Source of the DNA: Thioalkalivibrio sp. K90mix
GTDB lineage: Bacteria > Pseudomonadota > Gammaproteobacteria > Ectothiorhodospirales > Ectothiorhodospiraceae
Direction: 5' to 3'
Length of the DNA: 64,000 nucleotides
Assembly: GCF_000025545.1 (NCBI RefSeq)
Contig: NC_013889.1
Coordinates: 923,501 to 987,500 of the forward strand
The notes beneath the pieces are model-generated. The model worked only from the letters and a program-made list of their open reading frames with translations, did no database searches and was not told where the DNA came from. Made by a program: the position numbers and the translations under genes. Of the stretch, positions 25,901 through 36,446 are shown piece by piece (position 1 is the stretch's first letter; the number at the start of each line of letters is the position of its first letter).

Positions 25901-25999
25901 GGGAAACACTGTCTAATGTACATGCTCGCGTTGGTACCCCACGGGGCTCGGCCGCCCGTTGTTATCAAGAATGGGCGCGCGCATTAATCAGTGTTTCCC
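25901..25999. mobile_element. Short internally deleted MITE (copy B)
   Basis: About 99 bp bounded by inverted GGGAAACACTG and CAGTGTTTCCC. The inside keeps only the outer parts of the full element, including the CTCGGCCGCCCGTTGTT block. The flanks read TAA on the left and TGG on the right, so the TA duplication seen at other copies has decayed here or was never present. Confidence 0.75.
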
Positions 26000-26021: not shown

Positions 26022-26429
26022 ATGCATTTCGAACGTGACTTCGTCCTGCGCAATCGCGATGTGCTGGAGGGCATTGTGGCCCGTGCCCATCGTGTCGCGC
26101 TGGGGATCTTCGTGCTGACCTTCAGTGGCTACGGCATCGCCGTCTGGCTGTGGTTCCAGGAGCAGATGTGGGCGGCACTAATTACCGCGACCGTCAGCTA
26201 CCTGGTGTTTCGCCAGTTCCGGATGCTGGCGCTGGGGATCGCGCGCATGCCGCTGCGAGGGGACCCCGCGGCGCTGGAGGCGACCCGGGCACTGGATAAC
26301 GCGCTGGAAGAGGACCGGCCGCACCCGGTGCTGGCGGAGCTGGAGGCCCACCTGCGGGCGCTGGACGAGGAGGGATCCCCGGAGGCGCCGTCGGAAGAGA
26401 GTGAAGACGGCCGGTCGGGCCGGGACTAG
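26022..26429 (+). CDS. Small membrane protein of unknown function
   Basis: A 135-residue protein with two predicted membrane helices (HRVALGIFVLTFSGYGIAVW and MWAALITATVSYLVF) and an acidic, Glu-rich C-terminal tail that is probably cytoplasmic. I do not recognise the family. The start MHFERDF has GAGGA upstream; an earlier in-frame ATG lies inside the preceding MITE and is rejected. Its TAG stop is formed by a TA plus the first G of the next MITE, so the stop was rebuilt by that insertion. Confidence 0.65.
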   Translation: MHFERDFVLRNRDVLEGIVARAHRVALGIFVLTFSGYGIAVWLWFQEQMWAALITATVSYLVFRQFRMLALGIARMPLRGDPAALEATRALDNALEEDRPHPVLAELEAHLRALDEEGSPEAPSEESEDGRSGRD

Positions 26430-26726
26430 GGAGACGCTGATTTAATCGCACGTCCGCGTTGGTGCCCCCTGTTTTCCGAGACAAGGCGCGTCGTGTAGCG
26501 GGTAGTGGTTCTACCCGCAAGCGGCGCAACGCAGGATCGGGGAACAGGGAGCACCAACCCCACAAGCTATTGAAAGCAGGGGCTCGGCCGCCCGTTGTTG
26601 ATCAAAAACGGGCGCGGGAACGGCGTTGCGGCTCCTTTGTGCAGAATGACTGCACGGCAGTCACCGCGCCTTGTTCCCGCGCAAAAGCGACTCGAGCGCG
26701 GACGTGCGATTAAATCAGCGTCTCCC
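26429..26726. mobile_element. Full-length 298-bp MITE (copy C)
   Basis: A non-autonomous element with perfect 30-bp terminal inverted repeats (26429-26458 and 26697-26726, outer end GGGAGACGCTGATTTAATCG) flanked by TA on both sides (26427-26428 and 26727-26728). It contains no gene. Inside are a GTGCAG/CTGCAC-type hairpin and a CGGCCGCCCGTTGTTGATC block shared with other copies. TA duplication suggests mobilisation by an IS630/Tc1-mariner-type transposase, which is not present in this window. Confidence 0.88.
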
Positions 26727-27049
26727 TAGAGCTCGACGCGTACGCCCAGCTTCTGCCCGATCACGCGGGCCACGGTCTCGTGCAGGTCGTCCCCGTTACG
26801 GTCATCCAGCCAGGCATCTTCGTCCTCGTTGTAGCCGAAGTGGGCCGGTCCCTCGGGCGAGGACAGCCAGATCTGCTGTGCGGCCTCCTGGCGGTTCAGG
26901 ATCATCTGCGCCCCGTCCTCGAACTCGAGGGTCAGGACACCGTCGATCAGGTCGATGTCCAGGTCGTCGAGACCGTCCTGGTCGCTCAGGCGGTTGTAGA
27001 TCTCGTCGAGGGTCTGTTCGGCAAATACGGCGAAGGAGGGCTGGCTCAT
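26726..27049 (-). CDS. cyaY: Frataxin-like iron-sulfur assembly protein CyaY
   Basis: A 107-residue frataxin homologue: acidic first helix (EQTLDEIYNRLSDQDGLDDLDIDL), then the beta-sheet with DGVLTLEFEDGAQMILNRQ, QQIWLSSPEGPAHFGY and a C-terminal helix. CyaY binds iron and modulates IscS in Fe-S cluster assembly. Its length is normal. The TAG stop is shared with the end of MITE copy C. Before that insertion, this stop and the stop of the convergent gene would have met in a single palindromic CTAG. Confidence 0.93.
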   Translation of the reverse strand: MSQPSFAVFAEQTLDEIYNRLSDQDGLDDLDIDLIDGVLTLEFEDGAQMILNRQEAAQQIWLSSPEGPAHFGYNEDEDAWLDDRNGDDLHETVARVIGQKLGVRVEL

Positions 27050-27146
27050 GGGTCTCTCGGTTCGGTCGATGCTTTGGCGCGGGCAGTATAAAGGAGGAAG
27101 CGCTGAATGAAGCGATGTCGGCGTTCCGGACGGGGTCAACGTCTTC

Positions 27147-27539
27147 CTATGCTCGCCAGGCGGCGATCGCCAGGGCCACCCAGCCGAGGATGAAGGCGGT
27201 GCCGCCCAGTGGCGCGATGGCGCCCAGTACGCGCGGGGCCCCCAGGGCCAGGGCATACAGACTGCCGGCAAAGAGCAGGATGCCGAGCACGAAGGCCACG
27301 GCACTGGCGGTGGCCCAGCCGGTGGCCAGGTGCGCCCACAGCGCCGCCAGCAGGAGCAGGGCGAGGGCGTGGATGAAGTGATACTGGACGCCGGTGTGCC
27401 AGGTGGCCAGCGCGCGTTCGGACAGCCGGTCCTGCAGAGCGTGTGCCCCGAACGCACCGAGCACGACCGCGATCGCGGCGAGCAGGGCCGCGATTACGAT
27501 CAGTGCGCGGATCAGCGGTTCGCTTTCCGTGCCCGGCAT
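27147..27539 (-). CDS. DUF423 small membrane protein (YgdD-like)
   Basis: A 130-residue membrane protein with four helices, typical of the DUF423 family: GAFGAHALQDRLSERALATWHTGVQYHFIHALALLL is its hallmark. Function is unknown. The start MPGTESEP is immediately followed upstream by MITE copy D. Removing the element would restore a TAATG overlap between the upstream gene and this one, so the two were probably translationally coupled before the insertion. Homologous frames running into the MITE are rejected. Confidence 0.88.
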   Translation of the reverse strand: MPGTESEPLIRALIVIAALLAAIAVVLGAFGAHALQDRLSERALATWHTGVQYHFIHALALLLLAALWAHLATGWATASAVAFVLGILLFAGSLYALALGAPRVLGAIAPLGGTAFILGWVALAIAAWRA

Positions 27540-27541
27540 TA

Positions 27542-27745
27542 GGGAAACACTGACCGATGTACACGCTCGCCGCTTCGTCGCATTTGCGTTCGAACAAGGC
27601 GTGGCGACGGCCGTGCAGTCATTCTGCACAAGGGAGCCGCAGCGCCGTGCGCGTGCCCGTTTTTATCAACAACGGGCGGCCGAGCCCCTGCATTGAATGG
27701 TTTGTGGGGTACCAACGCGAGTGTGTACATCGATCAGTGTTTCCC
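27542..27745. mobile_element. 204-bp MITE splitting two coupled genes (copy D)
   Basis: Bounded by GGGAAACACTGA and TCAGTGTTTCCC, flanked by TA at 27540-27541 and 27746-27747. It is a shorter relative of copies C and E: it shares the GTGCAGTCATTCTGCAC hairpin and CGGGCGGCCGAGCCCCTGC block but lacks about 100 bp. It lies between two - strand genes that overlap as TAATG when the element is removed. Confidence 0.86.
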
Positions 27746-28083
27746 TAGGCGTCGTCGCCCATGTCGCTATCGTAGTCCTGCCCGGGCACCCAGCCGTGTT
27801 CCCGGGCCCGCGCGATCGCTGCATCGTGGATGCGCGTGTGGCGTTCACGCAGATCGGGCGGGAGGTTGGCAATGCGCAGGTCGTACTTGTCCCATTCGGC
27901 GTTGACCTGGTCGTGCAGCTGCTGGATGCGGCCGAGGTCCCAGCCCTCGCAGGTCTCGGTCTCCGGCAGGAAGCCGAAAACCCAGGCATCGCGGATAATA
28001 TTGCCGACCGGCGTCATGCCGCCGTACAAGTCATTGTGGATGCCGACGTAGTGGCGGCTTCCGGAGCGTCTGGCTGTAGTCAT
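27745..28083 (-). CDS. Conserved-looking small protein of unknown function
   Basis: A 112-residue soluble protein with many aromatic residues in its first half (HYVGIHNDLYGGMTPVGNII, then WVFGFLPETETCEGWDLG) and an amphipathic helical second half ending DYDSDMGDDA. No family or catalytic motif is recognised, and there is no signal peptide or membrane helix. It was likely coupled to the DUF423 gene before MITE copy D inserted. The TAG stop is formed at the MITE junction. It is divergent from the Rieske-like gene, sharing a 62-bp upstream region. A start 13 codons further upstream is possible but less likely. Confidence 0.68.
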   Translation of the reverse strand: MTTARRSGSRHYVGIHNDLYGGMTPVGNIIRDAWVFGFLPETETCEGWDLGRIQQLHDQVNAEWDKYDLRIANLPPDLRERHTRIHDAAIARAREHGWVPGQDYDSDMGDDA

Positions 28084-28145
28084 CCGCGTAGTGTAGAGGC
28101 ACGCCGGCCAGCCGCAAAGCACATTTCGTTATTGGTGGAGACCTG

Positions 28146-28709
28146 ATGATACAGCCCGCGGGCGACAGCCTGAATCGAATGCGGATCCGCGCTCTGCTGA
28201 AGCTGATGGTGCTGGGGGCTGTGATCGTGTTTGCCGGTGTGCTGGGGAGTTACGCGCTGTCCGTGCTGGGGGGTGGGGAGAGCGAGCGTCGCATCGTGGA
28301 GCTGGATGGGATCGGGCCCGGCGAGCTCAAGCGACTGGACTGGGAAGGCCGGCGCATCCTTGTTCTGCACCGTGATTCCGACCTGCAGCAGGCGCTGGGC
28401 AAGGACGATGAGCTGGTGGATCCGCGCGCCCGTCGCGGTCAGCAGCCGGACGGGCTGGAGCTGCCACTGCGCAGCCTGCGGCCACAGTGGCTGGTGGTGA
28501 TCGGCGAGAGCACCGATCTCGGCTGCGAGCTGGATCTGGTTCATCCGGACGAGGCCGATGGCTGGTCCGGCGGGTTTGTCGATCGCTGCCGTGGCGGTCG
28601 CTACGACGCCGCCGGGCGGGTGTATGACGGGCAGGATGCCCGGCGCAACCTGTCCATCCCCGAGTATCGCTTCTCTGGAGACGACCGGCTGATTCTGGGT
28701 GGTTCGTAA
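28146..28709 (+). CDS. Rieske-fold membrane protein lacking all cluster ligands
   Basis: A 187-residue protein with one N-terminal membrane helix (about residues 17-41) and a C-terminal domain that aligns along its length with Rieske subunits of cytochrome bc1 (WLVVIGES, then YDAAGRVYDGQDARRNLSIPEY). The two Fe-S boxes are degenerate: C-T-H-L-G-C reads S122-T-D124-L-G-C127, and C-P-C-H-G-S reads D146-R-C148-R149-G-G. All four ligand positions are replaced, while both disulfide cysteines (127 and 148) remain. It therefore cannot bind a Rieske cluster. Function unknown. Confidence 0.8.
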   Translation: MIQPAGDSLNRMRIRALLKLMVLGAVIVFAGVLGSYALSVLGGGESERRIVELDGIGPGELKRLDWEGRRILVLHRDSDLQQALGKDDELVDPRARRGQQPDGLELPLRSLRPQWLVVIGESTDLGCELDLVHPDEADGWSGGFVDRCRGGRYDAAGRVYDGQDARRNLSIPEYRFSGDDRLILGGS

Positions 28710-28742
28710 TCCCGAGGCGGGCGTGGGTCCCGCGGCCCGGAT

Positions 28743-29495
28743 TCAGGATTGCGCGGTGGGTGCGTAGACGTCGAAACGCACGCTCTTGCCCCTGACGCTG
28801 CCCTGGGGCGTGTCGGGACCCAGGGCAGGGGCATGCAGGGGCCGCTTGACGACGACCCGTCGCGTGGCCGCGTTGCGCAGCGTCTGCAGTGTGGTTTCCG
28901 GCTCGGGATCCGGGTCGCCCTCCATCAGGGCCTGGGTCAGCTGCATGTCCTTCTTGACCGCGGCGCGCTTGGCCCGCTCCGGGAACATGGGATCGAATAC
29001 GGCGGCGACGGGCGGCGTGCTCAGGGTGCCCGGCGCGGCCAGGCCCGCGTGCAGCGTGATGCGCTCGACGATCGGGGCCAGCGCCTCGTCATGGGCGGCG
29101 CGCTGCAGGGCATCCGCCAGCAGCAGGTAGACGACCGGGTGGCGTTCCCAGGCGTCCACGCGGAAGCCGTGCGCGGCCAGCAGCAGCGTATCGCGCCCCA
29201 GGCCCGCCGTGGCGTCTACCACATGGCTGTCCCGCGGGATATTGCCCATGGCCCGGATCAGGCCCTCTCGCTGGCGCCCGCTGTGCGCCAGACGATACCC
29301 CTGACGGCCGGTGGCAAAGTCCAGATGCAGACGCAGTTCGCGCCGGCCCTCCTCGCGGATCAGCGACAGCCCGTCCGCGCCGACCTCCAGTACCAGGGGT
29401 GCGCCCAGGTGACGATAGCCATGGGCTTGCAGGTCGCGGTCGATCTCCCCGGCTCGGGCCTCCTGCCCGGGTTCTGCGCGGATTTGAAGCGTCAC
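28743..29495 (-). CDS. rsmJ: 16S rRNA m2G1516 methyltransferase RsmJ
   Basis: A 250-residue SAM-dependent methyltransferase, the same length as E. coli RsmJ. Recognisable segments include LHLDFATGRQGYRLAHSG, the SAM-binding VVDATAGLGRDTLLLA and the catalytic-region FDPMFPERAKRA. It methylates guanine 1516 of 16S rRNA. The GTG start lies 2 bp downstream of the slyX stop; a longer frame overlapping slyX is rejected. It forms a compact - strand run with slyX and the dehydrogenase gene. Confidence 0.93.
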   Translation of the reverse strand: MTLQIRAEPGQEARAGEIDRDLQAHGYRHLGAPLVLEVGADGLSLIREEGRRELRLHLDFATGRQGYRLAHSGRQREGLIRAMGNIPRDSHVVDATAGLGRDTLLLAAHGFRVDAWERHPVVYLLLADALQRAAHDEALAPIVERITLHAGLAAPGTLSTPPVAAVFDPMFPERAKRAAVKKDMQLTQALMEGDPDPEPETTLQTLRNAATRRVVVKRPLHAPALGPDTPQGSVRGKSVRFDVYAPTAQS

Positions 29496-29497
29496 GG

Positions 29498-29740
29498 TCA
29501 GTAGTGCGGCGGAGGCGGCTCGTTGTCGGCTCCAGGACTGCCACCCTGGTCCTCGAGTTCCCGCAACCGGTCGCGGAGCCACTGGAGCTGGCGGCGCAGT
29601 TCCTGGTTGTCCTGCTGTAGCGCGTGCTGGACGCGAGCCTGCACTTCCTGGGTGTACTCCTGATGGGCCAGGCGAACCTCCAGCGCCTCGATCCGCGCGA
29701 TGAGTTCGTGGTCGGTGCGGGATGGATCAGCTGACGACAT
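29498..29740 (-). CDS. slyX: SlyX family coiled-coil protein
   Basis: An 80-residue protein that is nearly all heptad-like coiled coil (IARIEALEVRLAHQEYTQEV, then QQDNQELRRQLQWLRDRLRELE) and ends in the Pro-Pro-Pro-Pro-His-Tyr tail characteristic of SlyX. Molecular function is unknown. It overlaps the start region of rsmJ closely and overlaps the upstream dehydrogenase end by 14 bp, indicating a coupled operon. Confidence 0.9.
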   Translation of the reverse strand: MSSADPSRTDHELIARIEALEVRLAHQEYTQEVQARVQHALQQDNQELRRQLQWLRDRLRELEDQGGSPGADNEPPPPHY

Positions 29741-30707
29741 GGCGGGGCTGTCCCTGGGCGAAAGAGCGGATGTTGGCCGCGATCTCCTCGATCACGCGCT
29801 GGCGGGCACTGCGAGCCGCCCAGGCCGTATGCGGGGTCAGCACGAGGTTCGGGATGTCCGCTGCCAGCAGGGGGTGGTCCGCGGGTGGGGGCTCGGGCTC
29901 CAGGACGTCGATGCCGGCACCACCCAAATGTCCCTCGTGCAGATGCCGTGCGAGGGCCTCGGGATCGACCAGACCGCCCCGGGCGGTATTGAGCAGGATT
30001 GCCCCCGGTGGCATCTGCCGCAGAGCGTTGTCATCGATCAGGTTGCGCGTCTCGGGCGACAGCGGGCAATGCAGGCTGACCACGTCGCTGGTCGCAAGCA
30101 GCTCCGGCAGCGGGATTCGATACGCGTCATCCGCGGGCGAGGGCACTGCCTTCCGCAGGCTTGCGGCCACTTGGACCTGCATGCCGAAGGCCCGGGCGAC
30201 GCGTGCCGTGGCCTGCCCCAGTACGCCGTAGCCGATGATGCCCAGGCGCATGCCAGCCAGGGTCCGGATCGGATGGTCCAGCAGGCAGAACTGGTCGGAG
30301 GCGCTCCAGTGGCCGGCGCGGATATCGGCGCGGTAGTCGTCCAGCCGCGTGACCAGCGTCAGCAGCAGGGCAAATACATGCTGTACCACGGAGTCCGTTG
30401 CGTAGTCGCGCGCGTTGCTGACGGTGATGCCCAGCCGGTTTGCAGCGGCAACATCGATATTGTTGGTGCCGGTGGCCGCGGCACAGACCAGCTTGAGGTT
30501 TGCGGCGGTGCCCAGACGTGACTCGTCCAGTACCACCTTGTTCGTGACCACCACCTCGGCATTCGCAATGCGGGCGGCGATGTCATCTGCCTCTGTGCGC
30601 GGGTGCAGATCCCACTCGGGGAGGGCCTCGCGCAGGGGGGCGAGGTCCAGGTCGTCACGATCCACCGTGGACAGGTCGAGAAATACCCCGTGTCGCAGTT
30701 CAGTCAT
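29727..30707 (-). CDS. D-2-hydroxyacid dehydrogenase (glycerate dehydrogenase-like)
   Basis: A 326-residue NAD-dependent D-2-hydroxyacid dehydrogenase. The Rossmann motif reads GIIGYGVLGQATAR, the substrate Arg lies in LNTARGGLVD, and the catalytic His in LTPHTAWA with a Glu in between (EPEPPPADHP region). The HTAWAARSAR stretch resembles glycerate/hydroxypyruvate reductases, so a role in C2/photorespiratory glycolate salvage would suit an autotroph; the substrate is not proven. The start MTELRHGVFLD was preferred over an ATG four codons earlier. Confidence 0.87.
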   Translation of the reverse strand: MTELRHGVFLDLSTVDRDDLDLAPLREALPEWDLHPRTEADDIAARIANAEVVVTNKVVLDESRLGTAANLKLVCAAATGTNNIDVAAANRLGITVSNARDYATDSVVQHVFALLLTLVTRLDDYRADIRAGHWSASDQFCLLDHPIRTLAGMRLGIIGYGVLGQATARVARAFGMQVQVAASLRKAVPSPADDAYRIPLPELLATSDVVSLHCPLSPETRNLIDDNALRQMPPGAILLNTARGGLVDPEALARHLHEGHLGGAGIDVLEPEPPPADHPLLAADIPNLVLTPHTAWAARSARQRVIEEIAANIRSFAQGQPRHVVS

Positions 30708-30719
30708 GGCGGTTACCAA

Positions 30720-30832
30720 GGGAAAATGACGTTACGACGCTTGCGGATAGGAGCACTACCCCCGGCGCGACGCGGCTTGCCTCGGAAAACCTGGGGTGCC
30801 AACGCGAGCGTGTACATTGATCAGTGTTTCCC
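30720..30832. mobile_element. One-ended MITE remnant (copy F)
   Basis: About 113 bp whose right side, reading inward from TCAGTGTTTCCC at 30821-30832, matches the MITE family for roughly 90 bp (GCGTTGG, TTTTCCGAGG, GGTAGTG blocks). The left end is degenerate (GGGAAAATGACG). TA flanks are not preserved. It lies upstream of the dehydrogenase gene and next to the BI-1 terminator. Confidence 0.72.
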
Positions 30833-30835
30833 AAC

Positions 30836-30861
30836 AAAAGGGCCCCGCATCGCGGGGCCCG
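30836..30861 (-). terminator. Rho-independent terminator of the BI-1 gene
   Basis: A perfect stem of GGGCCCCGC/GCGGGGCCC (about 30840-30860) followed, on the - strand, by TTTTGTT. It lies 28 bp after the stop of the BI-1 family gene. Confidence 0.9.
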
Positions 30862-30888
30862 AATCGCTTGCCTGTCAGCCTGCGACGG

Positions 30889-31578
30889 TTAGTTGTCGCC
30901 CATGAAGGCGTGGAACAGGTTCAGCAGGTGGAGGAACATCACGTAGAGGTTCGCGTACAGCGAGACCGTCATCATGATGTAGTTGGCCTCCGGGTCGTGG
31001 ATCATGCGGCTGGTGTCGAACAGGATCGCCGCCGACAGCAGCAGCACCACGGCCGCCGAGATGGTCAGCGACAGCGCCGGGATCGCCAGGAAGAGGTTGG
31101 CGACGATCGCGAGCAGGGCGACGATCAGGCCGACCACCAGGAAGCCACCCAGGAAGCTGAAGTCCTTCTTGGTGGCCAGGGCGTAGCCGGACAGCGCGAC
31201 AAAGGCGACCGCCGTGGCGGTAAAGGCATTGCCGACGATCTGCGGGCCATTGGGCAGGCCCAGGTACATGCTCAGGATCGGGCCGAGGAAGAAGCCCAAC
31301 ACGCCGGTGAAGGCGAAGGTCAGCACCAGCCCGAGCGCGGAATTGCGCGCGGCATGGATGGCAAACGGACCGCCAATCAGCACGGCCAGCAGGACCAGCC
31401 AGTGCACCGCCGGGGCGCCCACGGCCATTGCCACAAAGGCCATCACCGCGCTGAACGCCAGGGTGACCGACAGCAGCATGTAGGTCTGTCGGATGACCTT
31501 GTTGGTCGAGATGGTCTCGCTGATGGAACCGGTACTGGACGGGTTGCGACTCGAGCGAACGATCTGGTCTCGGGACAC
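30889..31578 (-). CDS. BAX inhibitor-1 family membrane protein
   Basis: A 229-residue protein with seven membrane helices of the BI-1/YccA/YbhL family. Typical segments: NKVIRQTYMLLSVTLAFSAV at the first helix, GPILSMYLG, and the C-terminal DTSRMIHDPEANYIMMTVSLYANLYVMFLHLLNLF. Members are linked to ion leak and to regulation of the FtsH protease (YccA); the precise role of this one is unknown. It is monocistronic, with its own terminator. Confidence 0.92.
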   Translation of the reverse strand: MSRDQIVRSSRNPSSTGSISETISTNKVIRQTYMLLSVTLAFSAVMAFVAMAVGAPAVHWLVLLAVLIGGPFAIHAARNSALGLVLTFAFTGVLGFFLGPILSMYLGLPNGPQIVGNAFTATAVAFVALSGYALATKKDFSFLGGFLVVGLIVALLAIVANLFLAIPALSLTISAAVVLLLSAAILFDTSRMIHDPEANYIMMTVSLYANLYVMFLHLLNLFHAFMGDN

Positions 31579-31673
31579 GGGTCAACTCCTCTTGGGTTCG
31601 TAGCCTGCTCAGTGTAGCGACTGACGTCGGTGGTTGCAGCCCTTTTCGCCGTCCTTGGCGCGGGCTTTCGCCA

Positions 31674-33746
31674 TCATTTGATCGGTTCGCCCACGCGTTC
31701 GGAGATCTCCTTCACCGCATGGTCGGTGGACTTGAAGATGTTGTCCTTGCCGATGATGTCCTCGAGTCCGGTGCGCTGCATGACCTCCAGGACCTGTGCC
31801 TTCACGCCGGCGAACACCAGGGTGATGCCACGCGCCTTCAGGCGGTGGACCAGCTGGTGGATCACTTCCTCGCCGGAGGCGTCGATCTCGTTGATGCCCT
31901 TGCCGACCACGATCAGATACTTGGCCTGCGGGTGGCGGGCAATCAGGTCGAGTACCGCGTCCTCGAAGTAGGGGACGTTGGCGAAGTACAGCGAGCCGTC
32001 GAAGCGCATCAGGCCGACCTTCTCGTTGGTCTCCAGGCCGTAGCGCTGGGCCTCGCGAAGCGTCCCGTCCTCAAAGCGGGCCAGTTCGCACACGCGCGGC
32101 TGCATGGTGCGGTACAGGTACAGCACGATCGCCAGACCGGCGCCCATCAGGATGCCGTAGTCGAGGTTCGGAGCCATCGCCAGGGTGGCGATGAAGGTGA
32201 CCACCGCGGCCGCCCCGTCATGCTTGTTGGCCACCCAGGCGTGCTTGATCGCCTTGAAGTTAATCAGTCCGACCACCGCCATCATGATGATCGCCGCCAG
32301 CACCGACTGCGGCAGGTGATAGATCAGCGGCGTCAGAAAGAGTAGTGCGATCCCGATGATCACGGCCGTGAATACTGACGCCAGACCGGTGCGGGCACCC
32401 GAATTCAGGTTGACCGCCGAGCGCGAGAACGAACCACTGACGGGGTAGCCCTGGGTAAAGCCGCCGGCGATGTTGGCCAGGCCCTGTCCCATCAGCTCCT
32501 TGCTCGGATCGAGACGCTGGCCGGTGCGCGCGGCCATGGCCTTGGCAATCGCAATGGCCTCGGTAAAGCCGACCAGCGCGATCACGAAGGCCGTAGTCAG
32601 GAGCGTGGTGATCGTCCCGAAGGTGATCTCCGGCGCGGTGATCGATGGCAGGCCCTGGGGTACGTTGCCCACCACAGCGCCACCGCCATTCAGCGAGACC
32701 TCGTCGCCGTCCACTCGCTCGATCCGCCACGCGGTGCGCTCGGCGCGTTCGCGTTCGGCGTCCGTCAAGTGATCATCGGCGATGAAGCGCTCGGGTTCGT
32801 CGTCCGTCGCCGGGAGTCGGCGCAACGTCGTGTTGCGCAACTCGTCGCGCAGCGGGACGAGCTCGGCGCGCAGTTCATCGCGCTGCAGTTCGGCCTGCTC
32901 CTGCTGGAAGCGCAAGGCGGGCGCATCGCCGCGGGCCGCCTCCTGGATCTCGACTTCCAGTTCGCGCACGCGGTCGTCCAGATCGGCCGCTTGCGACCGC
33001 TTCTCTTCGATCTGCTGGGCGAGTTCGACCAGCTCGCTCGGTGCGATCTGAGCCAGCGTCGTGTCGGCCTTGCGCTCGTACCCGATCAGCCAGGAGATCA
33101 GGATGGTGACGACCACTGCGACCAGCACGCCCGGAATCTTCGGGGTGACGCGCTTCATGCCAACCATCAGCGCGATCGCGCCCAGGCCAAAGGCGAGGGT
33201 GGGCCAGTGGGTGTGGCCCAGTTCCAGTACGACGCCCCAGAGACCCAGGAGGAAGTGGCCGGAGGTGTCGATCGGGACCCCCAGCAGCTTGTTGATCTGG
33301 GACAGCCCGATGATGATCGCGGCGGCGTTGGTAAAACCGACGATCACCGGGTGGGAGATGAAGCTGACCAGCGCACCTAGCTTGAACAGGCCCATGACCA
33401 GCTGGATCACGCCCACGATCAGGGCCAGTGCGATTGCCAGCATGATGAATTCGGAGGAGCCCTCGGCCGCAAGCGGCACCAGGGCCGATGCCGTCAGCAG
33501 GGATACCACTGCGACCGGGCCGGTAGCGAGCTGATTCGAGGAACCCCACAGCGCGGCCACCATCACCGGCAGCAGCGAGGCATAGAGCCCGTATACCGGA
33601 GGCAGGCCGGCCAGCTGCGCATAGGCCATGGATTGCGGAATCAGGACCAGGGCCACCGAGATCCCGGCGATCAGATCCGCGTTGAGCGTTTCCTTGGTGG
33701 GGCGCCAGCTCAGGAACGGAAAGATGCGCAGCAGGATCGAATTCAT
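31674..33746 (-). CDS. SulP family anion transporter with STAS domain and coiled-coil insert
   Basis: A 690-residue SLC26/SulP transporter. The N-terminal membrane core begins with LNADLIAGISVALVLIPQSMAYAQLAGLPP, and a C-terminal cytoplasmic STAS domain covers about residues 580-690. It is about 110 residues longer than usual because residues 223-368, between two membrane segments, hold a highly charged coiled coil (EEKRSQAADLDDRVRELEVE and following). SulP proteins move sulfate, bicarbonate or other anions; the carbon-concentrating genes nearby make bicarbonate attractive, and sulfate export would also suit a sulfur oxidiser. Substrate unproven. Confidence 0.88.
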   Translation of the reverse strand: MNSILLRIFPFLSWRPTKETLNADLIAGISVALVLIPQSMAYAQLAGLPPVYGLYASLLPVMVAALWGSSNQLATGPVAVVSLLTASALVPLAAEGSSEFIMLAIALALIVGVIQLVMGLFKLGALVSFISHPVIVGFTNAAAIIIGLSQINKLLGVPIDTSGHFLLGLWGVVLELGHTHWPTLAFGLGAIALMVGMKRVTPKIPGVLVAVVVTILISWLIGYERKADTTLAQIAPSELVELAQQIEEKRSQAADLDDRVRELEVEIQEAARGDAPALRFQQEQAELQRDELRAELVPLRDELRNTTLRRLPATDDEPERFIADDHLTDAERERAERTAWRIERVDGDEVSLNGGGAVVGNVPQGLPSITAPEITFGTITTLLTTAFVIALVGFTEAIAIAKAMAARTGQRLDPSKELMGQGLANIAGGFTQGYPVSGSFSRSAVNLNSGARTGLASVFTAVIIGIALLFLTPLIYHLPQSVLAAIIMMAVVGLINFKAIKHAWVANKHDGAAAVVTFIATLAMAPNLDYGILMGAGLAIVLYLYRTMQPRVCELARFEDGTLREAQRYGLETNEKVGLMRFDGSLYFANVPYFEDAVLDLIARHPQAKYLIVVGKGINEIDASGEEVIHQLVHRLKARGITLVFAGVKAQVLEVMQRTGLEDIIGKDNIFKSTDHAVKEISERVGEPIK

Positions 33747-33905
33747 GGCGGTACTCGCTTGGCCTGTTCGTGACGAAGACGACGGCTAGTCGAGCGATCC
33801 CGCGTGCCCGGCGCACCCGGGCCGTATGGCTGCCAGGGCCGTCGTCACGTGATTGGCAGCCATGTCTGGCCCGGGCTTGGGCCGGGCGCAGTCAGGGGAG
33901 CGCAG

Positions 33906-33935
33906 ATTATAGAAGGTTGGCTTATTTTCTTCTAT
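33906..33935 (-). promoter_or_regulatory. SulP promoter -10 with overlapping inverted repeat
   Basis: On the - strand a perfect TATAAT lies at 33911-33906, with no good -35 at the normal distance. A perfect 7-bp inverted repeat, ATAGAAG at 33909-33915 and CTTCTAT at 33929-33935, overlaps it. A regulated promoter is likely; the regulator is unknown. The expected leader before the SulP start is about 150 nt. Confidence 0.5.
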
Positions 33936-34006
33936 CAAAGGTATTCAATGCGACATATAGAGCATAAGAAATGTAACGGGGCGTGATGGACCGTCGAGGT
34001 TCAAAC

Positions 34007-34040
34007 AAAAAAGCCCCGGTCACCAACGGTGACCGGGGCT
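34007..34040 (-). terminator. Rho-independent terminator of the Gln-rich protein gene
   Basis: A perfect 12-bp stem (GCCCCGGTCACC/GGTGACCGGGGC, 34013-34039) with six A at 34007-34012 on the + strand, i.e. six T on the - strand after the stem. It serves the gene ending at 34064. Confidence 0.92.
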
Positions 34041-34063
34041 TTCGGCGTATGCTTCGGCGTGGC

Positions 34064-34648
34064 TTACTGCGGGGGTGCCATGCCCGGGCTGCCGCCCTGC
34101 TGCATTTCCTGCTGCAGGTTTTCCAGACGCGCGATGACATCATCGATGTCCGGATTCTCTTCGCGCATCGCGGCCATCAGGTCTTCACGCAGCGATTCCT
34201 GAGCGGAGATGATCTCCTCGTCCTGCGCCACGGCCTGCTGGGCCTCCTGCAGGTTCATCTGCGCCTGCTGGACGTCTTCGGACTGAATTACCTGCTGGCG
34301 TTCCTCGGCGCTCAGGTCCGGGTCGCGCAGGCGTTCTTCGGCACCTTCCAGGGTCTCGAGATCCTGGCGCGGCTGATAGCCGGCCTCTTCCATCTTGTTG
34401 AGCACCAGGTTTTCAAGCTCTTCGCCCTTTTGTTCCAGATCGGGGTTGTTCTCGATCGCCTGCTGCTGGGTCTCGGCCAGGGTCTGCTGCAGTTGCTGCA
34501 TTTCCATTTGCGGGTCGGCACCGCCTTGCTGCTGTCCCTGCTGGCCCATGCCTTCCTGACCCATGCCCTGGGCCATGACCAGCGGGCTGGCGAGCGCGAG
34601 CGCGGCGGCGGCAATCAAACCGGCGAGAGGCCGGGAACGGTTCGTCAT
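34064..34648 (-). CDS. Secreted Gln/Glu-rich helical protein, unknown function
   Basis: A 194-residue protein with a Sec signal peptide (MTNRSRPLAGLIAAAALALA, cut near VMA-QG). The mature part starts with a Gly/Gln/Met-rich stretch and continues as a long, strongly helical, Gln- and Glu-rich region with coiled-coil character. No Cys and no known domain is recognised; it vaguely resembles periplasmic DUF4168-like helical proteins. The start follows GAGGAGA by a good distance; an ATG five codons earlier overlaps that ribosome site and is rejected. It has a strong terminator of its own. Confidence 0.78.
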   Translation of the reverse strand: MTNRSRPLAGLIAAAALALASPLVMAQGMGQEGMGQQGQQQGGADPQMEMQQLQQTLAETQQQAIENNPDLEQKGEELENLVLNKMEEAGYQPRQDLETLEGAEERLRDPDLSAEERQQVIQSEDVQQAQMNLQEAQQAVAQDEEIISAQESLREDLMAAMREENPDIDDVIARLENLQQEMQQGGSPGMAPPQ

Positions 34649-34779
34649 AACAATTCTCCTCATGAAAGTACGGTGGGAAGCTTAGTGCGTGGCGACTTAA
34701 CAACAGCTTAACAGGCGCGAGCGTGCGTTTCCGGGGCACCCCGGTTTTCGTTGCAGGCTTCTCGTTTTTCGACGCTCTA

Positions 34780-34792
34780 GGGAGACGCTGAC
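34780..34792. repeat. Solo MITE terminus abutting copy E
   Basis: GGGAGACGCTGAC between TA dinucleotides (34778-34779 and 34793-34794), directly in front of full-length copy E. It looks like the end left by a second element that inserted next door and was lost, or a tandem end duplication. Confidence 0.7.
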
Positions 34793-34794
34793 TA

Positions 34795-35092
34795 GGGAGA
34801 CGCTGATTGAATCGCGCGTCCGCGCTCGAGTCGCTTTTGCGTGCGAACAAGGCGCGGTGACTGCCGTGCAGTCATTCTGCACAAGGGAACCGCAACGTTG
34901 TGCGCGCGCCCGTTTTTGATCAACAACGGGCGGCCGAGCCCCTGCTTTGAATGGCTGGTGGGGCTGGTGCCCCCTGTTCCCCGATCCTGCGTTGCGCCGC
35001 TTGTGGGTAGAACCACTACCCGCTGCACGACGCGCCTTGTCTCGGAAAACAGGGGGCACCAACGCGGACGTGCGATTCAATCAGCGTCTCCC
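34795..35092. mobile_element. Full-length 298-bp MITE, inverted relative to copy C (copy E)
   Basis: Exactly as long as copy C (298 bp) and highly similar to it in the opposite orientation. Its ends are GGGAGACGCTGATTGAATCG and its inverse, and it is flanked by TA at 34793-34794 and 35093-35094. It contains no gene. It fills most of the 443-bp gap between the Gln-rich protein gene and the methyltransferase gene, whose TAG stop forms at its right edge. The remaining 34649-34779 shows nothing recognisable. Confidence 0.88.
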
Positions 35093-35745
35093 TAGGGCCG
35101 TGGGGTTCCGAAAAGCGCAATGTCCGGCGCCGTCAGGTGGATCTCCCAGCCAAGATGCGCGGCGATCCAGCGCAGGGTGTCGGGCCCGTAGAAGGCCACA
35201 TGGGTGGGGTCTCGGCGATAGTGCCAACGATGAAAGGCCGCCGCGGGAGGCGGCCAGCCGGTCATGATCGCCAGCGTGCCGCCGGGGCGCAGAAGGGCGG
35301 CCATCCCCGCAAGTGTGGCGATCGGGTCATGCAGGTGTTCGAGGACCTCGGTACAGGTGACGAGATCGAAGCATTCGCCGGCGTGCGGGCGGTCGGGCGC
35401 AAAAACCGGATCAAAGGCCTGCATGGAATAGCCCCGCGCACGCAGCATGTCCGCCAGTACCGGATGAGGGCCACAGCCCCAGTCAAGGCCCTGTGCTGGC
35501 GGTGGACAGTGCGCCTCCAGCGGCGCAAGCAGGCGGCCCAGGAAGCGCCGATATCCGGCATCATCCGGGCGGTTCTCGTGCGTCTGGTAGTAGTCGCGCT
35601 CGAAGTTGGGTGTGGGCCAGTACTCGCGCTCGAGGACGATCAGGGAACAATGGCGACAGCGCTGGTAACCCCCGGGCGAGGGATCACGCACCCCGCGGCT
35701 GAAGAACGGGTGCAGAAGGCTGGCGCACAACGGACATCGGGCCAT
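35092..35745 (-). CDS. SAM-dependent methyltransferase with N-terminal zinc ribbon
   Basis: A 217-residue class I methyltransferase. The N-terminus carries a CPLC...CRHC pair (Cys4 and Cys7, then Cys30 and Cys33 approximately) that should bind zinc. The SAM site is LDWGCGPHPVLADML, with the later segment FDLVTCTEVLEHLHDP typical of Methyltransf_11/23-type enzymes. The substrate is unknown. The gene is bracketed by MITE copy E at its 3' end, which forms its stop codon, and a solo MITE terminus just before its start, so it may have been carried or framed by these elements. Confidence 0.82.
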   Translation of the reverse strand: MARCPLCASLLHPFFSRGVRDPSPGGYQRCRHCSLIVLEREYWPTPNFERDYYQTHENRPDDAGYRRFLGRLLAPLEAHCPPPAQGLDWGCGPHPVLADMLRARGYSMQAFDPVFAPDRPHAGECFDLVTCTEVLEHLHDPIATLAGMAALLRPGGTLAIMTGWPPPAAAFHRWHYRRDPTHVAFYGPDTLRWIAAHLGWEIHLTAPDIALFGTPRP

Positions 35746-35746
35746 G

Positions 35747-35760
35747 CGTCAGTGTTTCCC
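35747..35760. repeat. Solo MITE terminus between methyltransferase and peptidase genes
   Basis: CGTCAGTGTTTCCC followed by TA, matching the end of the GGGAAACACTGA-type elements. It sits one base from the methyltransferase start codon, and the TA plus its last base forms the TAG stop of the upstream peptidase gene. No other part of an element remains here. Confidence 0.65.
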
Positions 35761-36446
35761 TAACGGCGCAGGAAGCGGAACCAGGACGCGATGTTCAACA
35801 GGCTCATCAGGGACTGAGCGAGGTAAGTATAGGCCGCGGCCTTGAGGATGCGCTGGGCATGCGGGTAGTCCGGCGGGTGCAGGTAATTGCCCCGGCGGAG
35901 CATGGGCAGGGCCCGGCGGAAGCTCGCGTCGAATTCGGTGGGCAGGGTGACGAAGTGCACCAGCGCGGCGAGCCCCATCGACAGGATCCCGGCCAGGAAA
36001 AACAGGATGCCCGGCGCCGGATGCCTGGCGATTAGAGTGATCACGGGGATTGCGACCATCAGCCAGGCCCCGATCTGCTGGCCGTAACGGGAAAGGCAGA
36101 CCAGGTTGCTGCGCATGCGCAGGGGCGGGTATTCCTGAGCATGCTGCACCGCATGACCCACTTCGTGCGCGGCCACGGTGATTGCGGTGAGCGAGCGGCC
36201 ATCGTGGTTGTCCTCCGACAGCCGTACCGCGCGATCAAAGGCGTCGTAGTGGTCGCCGTCGCGGGTGGATTCGACACGCACGTCTTGCAGGCCATGGCGA
36301 TCCAGCAGATCACGCGCCAGCTCTGCGCCGGTCCCGTCGTAGCGGTCCTCCGGCTGGCTGTACTTCTTCATCGTCTGGCGTACCCACCAGCTCGGGGCCC
36401 AGGCCAGGAGCAGCACGAGCGGTGCGAGCAGAATCAGCAGTCGCAT
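35760..36446 (-). CDS. Membrane zinc metallopeptidase, YugP family
   Basis: A 228-residue protein with an N-terminal membrane helix, a cytoplasmic or periplasmic segment carrying the zinc motif HEVGH (residues 94-98, VAAHEVGHAVQHA), and two or three further helices. Likely third-ligand region: TEFDASFRRA, which is typical of the YugP (peptidase_M48-like) family. Substrates are unknown. Its TAG stop is formed at a MITE terminus. It is followed upstream by a 72-bp gap to the mscS gene on the same strand. Confidence 0.87.
   Translation of the reverse strand: MRLLILLAPLVLLLAWAPSWWVRQTMKKYSQPEDRYDGTGAELARDLLDRHGLQDVRVESTRDGDHYDAFDRAVRLSEDNHDGRSLTAITVAAHEVGHAVQHAQEYPPLRMRSNLVCLSRYGQQIGAWLMVAIPVITLIARHPAPGILFFLAGILSMGLAALVHFVTLPTEFDASFRRALPMLRRGNYLHPPDYPHAQRILKAAAYTYLAQSLMSLLNIASWFRFLRR

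Follow-up and report, generated by a model that had tools for sequence, protein, structure and literature searches.

An IS5-type MITE family in Thioalkalivibrio with a YTAR target that often coincides with gene stop codons

We have found a family of MITEs in Thioalkalivibrio sp. K90mix and related strains that is of the IS5 type and has the YTAR target expected of that group. Insertion duplicates 4 bp of host sequence, usually CTAG or TTAA. Where a gene ends at the junction, its stop codon was already part of the host target and, after duplication, is present on each side; the element does not rebuild the stop. The sequences make it very probable that these are non-autonomous elements moved in trans by an IS5-family DDE transposase, and that their junctions with stop codons arise through the choice of target and subsequent selection. 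An IS5-subgroup-type transposase would join ends of the form GGARACRCTGA to a 4-bp palindromic YTAR site, mostly CTAG or TTAA, and gap filling would then duplicate the 4 bp, a duplication seen in matching 4-mers and in empty sites. Each strand of YTAR includes a TAG or TAA, so a target that overlaps a stop codon leaves the stop in place on each flank, as the sites show. Selection would remove copies that break genes, so that survivors would lie between genes and on stop codons.

The family came to light in a 64,000-bp stretch of the K90mix chromosome (NC_013889.1, positions 923,501 to 987,500; hereafter the window, in which all positions are counted unless a locus is named). A sequence-only reading had placed full copies at 26429-26726, 27542-27745 and 34795-35092, and these are present as three near-full copies with inverted terminal repeats; the TA adjoining GGG or CCC that it described is also seen at their junctions. 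The elements, their target words and the gene ends that they meet are as follows.

25902-25998: shortened MITE copy, 97 bp, with decayed target 4-mers TAAG and CTGG (sequence)
26426-26429: left target duplication CTAG of copy 1; TAG at 26427-26429 is the stop of the + strand gene 26022-26429 (sequence, gene call, identical 4-mer on the other side)
26430-26725, + strand: MITE copy 1, 296 bp, G-type ends (GGAGACGCTGATTTAATCGC) (sequence; RNA fold z = -14.8)
26726-26729: right target duplication CTAG of copy 1; read on the - strand, its CTA gives cyaY its TAG stop (sequence, gene call, PF01491)
27539-27542: left target 4-mer TTAG of copy 2; its T is common to the DUF423 start codon on the - strand (sequence; empty site GGCATTAGGCGTCG in L101, Thioalkalivibrio sp. 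ALJ21)
27543-27744, - relative to copy 1: MITE copy 2, A-type ends (GGAAACACTGA...), shortened internally, 202 bp
27745-27748: right target 4-mer CTAG of copy 2; in it lies the stop codon (TAG) of gene 27745-28083 on the - strand (sequence, gene call)
30730-30831: partial MITE copy, one end only
34777-34791, + strand: CTAG plus an 11-bp terminal remnant GGAGACGCTGA, abutting copy 3 on the left (sequence)
34792-34795: left target duplication CTAG of copy 3 (sequence)
34796-35091, - strand: MITE copy 3, 296 bp, G-type, inverted relative to copy 1 with 94% identity
35092-35095: right target duplication CTAG of copy 3; in it lies the stop codon (TAG) of the methyltransferase gene 35092-35745 on the - strand (PF13489)
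35749-35763, - strand: solo 11-bp terminal remnant (35749-35759) and host 4-mer CTAA (35760-35763) with the TAG stop of the peptidase gene

According to the gene calls, all five genes named in that reading do terminate on a junction. Besides the gene 26022-26429 and the gene 27745-28083, they are cyaY, which encodes frataxin, the methyltransferase gene and the gene ending at 35760, which encodes a zinc metallopeptidase (PF04298); the last indeed ends on a junction, although what lies there is just the 11-bp terminal remnant and not a full copy. The named relatives at this locus are all Thioalkalivibrio strains. At the gene end of site 26426, strain ALJ3 has an internally deleted copy (L102:4882-5390, window orientation), and AKL19 has an end remnant at a TTAG stop (L105, ~5340) that is apparently independent. 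Copy 3 comes directly after an 11-bp end remnant with a CTAG in common (34777-34795), and at G000:C1:84314-85827 (L063, L281) the CTAG to the right of a MITE is occupied by an IS. Every insertion makes a second target.

The MITE family proposed from the window was borne out as a high-copy family accumulating between genes. The K90mix genome (2,985,056 bp; PMC3368412) carries at least 54 MITEs with paired ends, together with three copies of a 1200-bp IS; these counts were taken from genome stretches around matches, and the copy numbers are lower bounds. Most copies are 265-311 bp long, and some are shortened internally. Of 29 further Thioalkalivibrio genomes, 15 also contain MITE DNA (16 of 30 with K90mix included), as against none of 28 genomes from outside the genus. 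A set of 137 copies comprises two subfamilies, each with its own symmetric ends (GGAAACAC... and GGAGACGC...), and these match opposite IS ends in related genomes. We found no paper linking Thioalkalivibrio with a MITE of this kind, and the K90mix genome paper mentions transposases only (PMC3368412).

The boundary of the element was set by pooling 146 distinct insertion sites from K90mix and its relatives. An identical 4-mer stood on both sides at 61 of these: CTAG (39), TTAA (13), CTAA, TTAG and CTTG (2 each), and GTAG, CCGG and CCAG (1 each). CTAG, TTAA, CTAA and TTAG thus make up 56 of the 61, or 57 if the one-off GTAG is included. It follows that the element starts with GGARACRCTGA and that the preceding base, G after CTAG and A after TTAA, belongs to the host target. 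The earlier proposal of a TA duplication by an element with GGG ends therefore set the boundary one base off: the base before GGA is A in TTAA copies, so the third G of its GGG is part of the target. Nor do the junctions always give TAG: the stop is TAA at TTAA and CTAA copies, and decay has turned many of the older junctions into CTGG, CCAG or CTTG. Empty sites in relatives hold a single copy of the word, namely TTAA (L270 vs L189), TTAG (L101 vs the window) and CTTG (L069 vs L272). That reading had named empty sites as a check on TA duplication; the words in these filled and empty pairs are 4 bp, and the CTTG empty site is without any TA. The 4-bp YTAR duplication agrees with the IS5 subgroup (PMC10359306), whose target has also been printed as C(A/T)A(G/A) (PMC11677980).

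A partner for the MITEs was found in the 1200-bp elements, which encode a 321-aa IS5-family transposase (NF033581, 319 bits against a cut-off of 140; DDE_Tnp_1, PF01609). The sequence-only reading had pointed to an IS630/Tc1-type transposase with matching ends, and the transposase that is bracketed by MITE ends belongs instead to the IS5 family. No match to it was found in the PDB set, in which a solved structure was sought. The three K90mix copies are flanked by CTAG on both sides (twice) or GTAG on both sides (once), and related IS copies in other genomes have CTAG, TTAA, GTAG or TAAG duplications. The IS is similar at one end to the A-type MITE end (GGAAACGCTGATCAATGG) and at its opposite end, in two further genomes (L282 and L283), to the G-type MITE end (GGAGACGCTGATTTAATCCGC). 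MITE and IS have 11-19 bp in common at each end, and both MITE end types occur among IS copies. These shared ends suggest that the 1.2-kb IS performs MITE transposition and that the outer sequences of the MITEs probably derive from its two ends. Close relatives of the transposase were present in 6 of 30 genus genomes and MITEs in 16, so in many genomes the partner has been lost, has diverged or was missed, and the MITEs outlive or outspread the transposase.

The proposal that insertion into a stop codon is silent holds insofar as the protein is unchanged on both sides of such a site, but it is not general. The empty site in ALJ21 is a minus-strand TAATG in which the stop of the upstream gene (27745-28083) overlaps the start of the DUF423 gene at 27147-27539. 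In K90mix, copy 2 (27539-27748) has inserted 202 bp and a second 4-mer between the formerly overlapping genes, splitting TAATG. At the same site ALJ3 has a short remnant, TTAGTGTTTCCCCTAGGCTAG. The idea of a rebuilt stop does have a partial counterpart in stops encoded by the element itself. The terminal repeat carries TGA at positions 9-11 in the YTA-reading frame in 252 of ~284 ends, and in the TAR frame there is often a TAA or TGA at 13-15; eleven called genes end at the former and seven at the latter. Gene-ending element sides thus number 68, of which 50 act through the duplicated target and 18 through the element's end.

For the stop-codon counts, genes were called using a codon-usage model after elements had been removed from the sequences. 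Over distinct sites in the genus, a gene stop lies at a distance of exactly 0 from 50 element sides, compared with no more than 5 sides for each of the other outward distances to 45 bp, which is not chance. Retention of TAR on the stop side was considered as further evidence and set aside, the argument being circular in part: only an intact TAR can place a stop at distance 0. Among the 54 MITEs with a clean YTAR duplication at the pooled sites, 24 coincide with stop codons, 27 lie between genes and 3 lie within a gene; the background of 924 YTAR sites comprises 147 on stop codons, 445 non-coding and 332 (36%) inside genes. The enrichment at stop codons that had been predicted is thus strong when all YTAR sites are the reference (24/54 vs 147/924, p 2e-6), as is the deficit inside genes (3/54 vs 36%, p 5e-7). 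It does not stay significant once word and gene context are matched (odds ratio 1.6, p 0.23; 24 seen, 20 expected). Already 25% of non-coding YTAR and 37% of non-coding CTAG sites are stop codons, and K90mix alone has 18/54 on stop codons against 25% (p 0.16). Target choice and the removal of gene-breaking insertions explain most of the stop-codon excess.

Three other explanations were weighed. Correia, Nezha and RUP are TA-duplicating MITEs that follow IS630/Tc1-type elements. The family could likewise be a TA-duplicating IS630/Tc1-type MITE with GGG ends whose own G rebuilds TAG. Such an element would be expected, without any mutation, to leave the 14 sites at which a left-hand NTAG is paired with a non-identical right-hand CTAN (e.g. 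TTAG/CTAG six times and TTAG/CTAA three times; copy 2 is among them), and copy 2 at its TTAG empty site fits a TA duplication and a 4-bp duplication alike. We read these 14 pairs as probable single transitions in old duplications, as decay between CTAG and CTGG is common (10 sites). A TA duplication would require a base of the element to covary with the target in TTAA/TTAA (13 sites), TTAG/TTAG, CTAA/CTAA, GTAG/GTAG and CTTG/CTTG; it is contradicted by the TTAA and CTTG filled and empty pairs, and we regard it as highly improbable. An IS630/Tc1 origin as such was rejected on the TTAA, GTAG and CTTG duplications and the IS5-family transposase found between matching ends. It is also unlikely that stop codons are actively targeted, the machinery or some DNA structure at gene ends (e.g. 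convergent terminators) drawing insertions beyond the YTAR word. In favor of this, the excess against a word-matched non-coding background has an odds ratio of 2.2 (p 0.025), insertions are commoner between convergent genes (21/51 vs 95/557, p 1e-4), where 12 of the 13 CTAG insertions coincide with a stop codon, compared with 17/32 CTAG sites in the background (p 0.016, uncorrected, in one of several subgroups examined). However, the excess matched for both word and context is the non-significant one given above, TTAA has no stop-codon excess (1/12), and selection that disfavors insertions in promoters and operons is enough to predict a convergent excess. That transposase and MITEs prefer convergent-gene CTAG stops beyond word and selection, as an element adapted to gene ends, seems to us very doubtful on these sequences.

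The remaining alternative is a domesticated function, in which the element is kept for use at gene ends, either as a structured RNA or as a terminator working in both directions. The 296-bp copy folds almost completely, and the fold is very strong on either strand (z -14.8 and -14.6); the paired columns covary across 137 copies, with 852 two-sided changes compared with 49-131 when partners are slid. Against this, no Rfam match was found for the MITE, terminator-like sites in 26400-27800 are at background level (1 vs 0.9 expected), and the copies are polymorphic and decaying. The covariation largely separates the two subfamilies, and hairpin repair or recognition of the ends by the transposase can yield it. 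We consider a domesticated role very unlikely and claim no function for the MITE, given this partition of the covariation and the absence of RNA family or terminator signals. Within the stems of the 137 copies, complementarity is kept through paired changes.

The reading that we favor, of IS5-type MITEs with a YTAR target, makes the stop-codon junctions mainly an ordinary outcome of a known transposon family's target choice and purifying selection. A palindromic, stop-containing target lets insertions survive at gene ends in the GC-rich, gene-dense genome of a soda-lake bacterium, and junction-level counts of stop codons require a target-word background before any claim of targeting. The family, for which we found no description, has a clear partner IS and dozens of documented filled and empty sites. 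Like IS5 of E. coli and the IS5 subgroup, the partner has an IS5-family DDE transposase, a length of ~1.2 kb, ends starting with GG and a 4-bp YTAR duplication. It differs from IS5 in its transposase and ends and in its large MITE progeny of 265-311 bp, found only in Thioalkalivibrio among the genomes searched. The MITEs resemble Correia/NEMIS, Nezha, ERIC and RUP (PMC3733652) in being short and non-coding, with inverted ends, strong hairpins and many copies near genes, but those belong to other lineages, whereas the Thioalkalivibrio MITE follows an IS5-type element with a 4-bp YTAR target. The GTAG REP repeats of K90mix (PMC3733652) are likewise palindromic and intergenic and occur in the same genome; they are 20-40 bp, RAYT-linked and without target duplication, a family separate from the MITEs. 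A REP/REPIN identity with RAYT was accordingly rejected for the MITEs. At G000:C1:826216-826239 (L077), two terminal repeats are joined end to end in a near-palindrome of 24 bp that may be left over from a collapsed copy.
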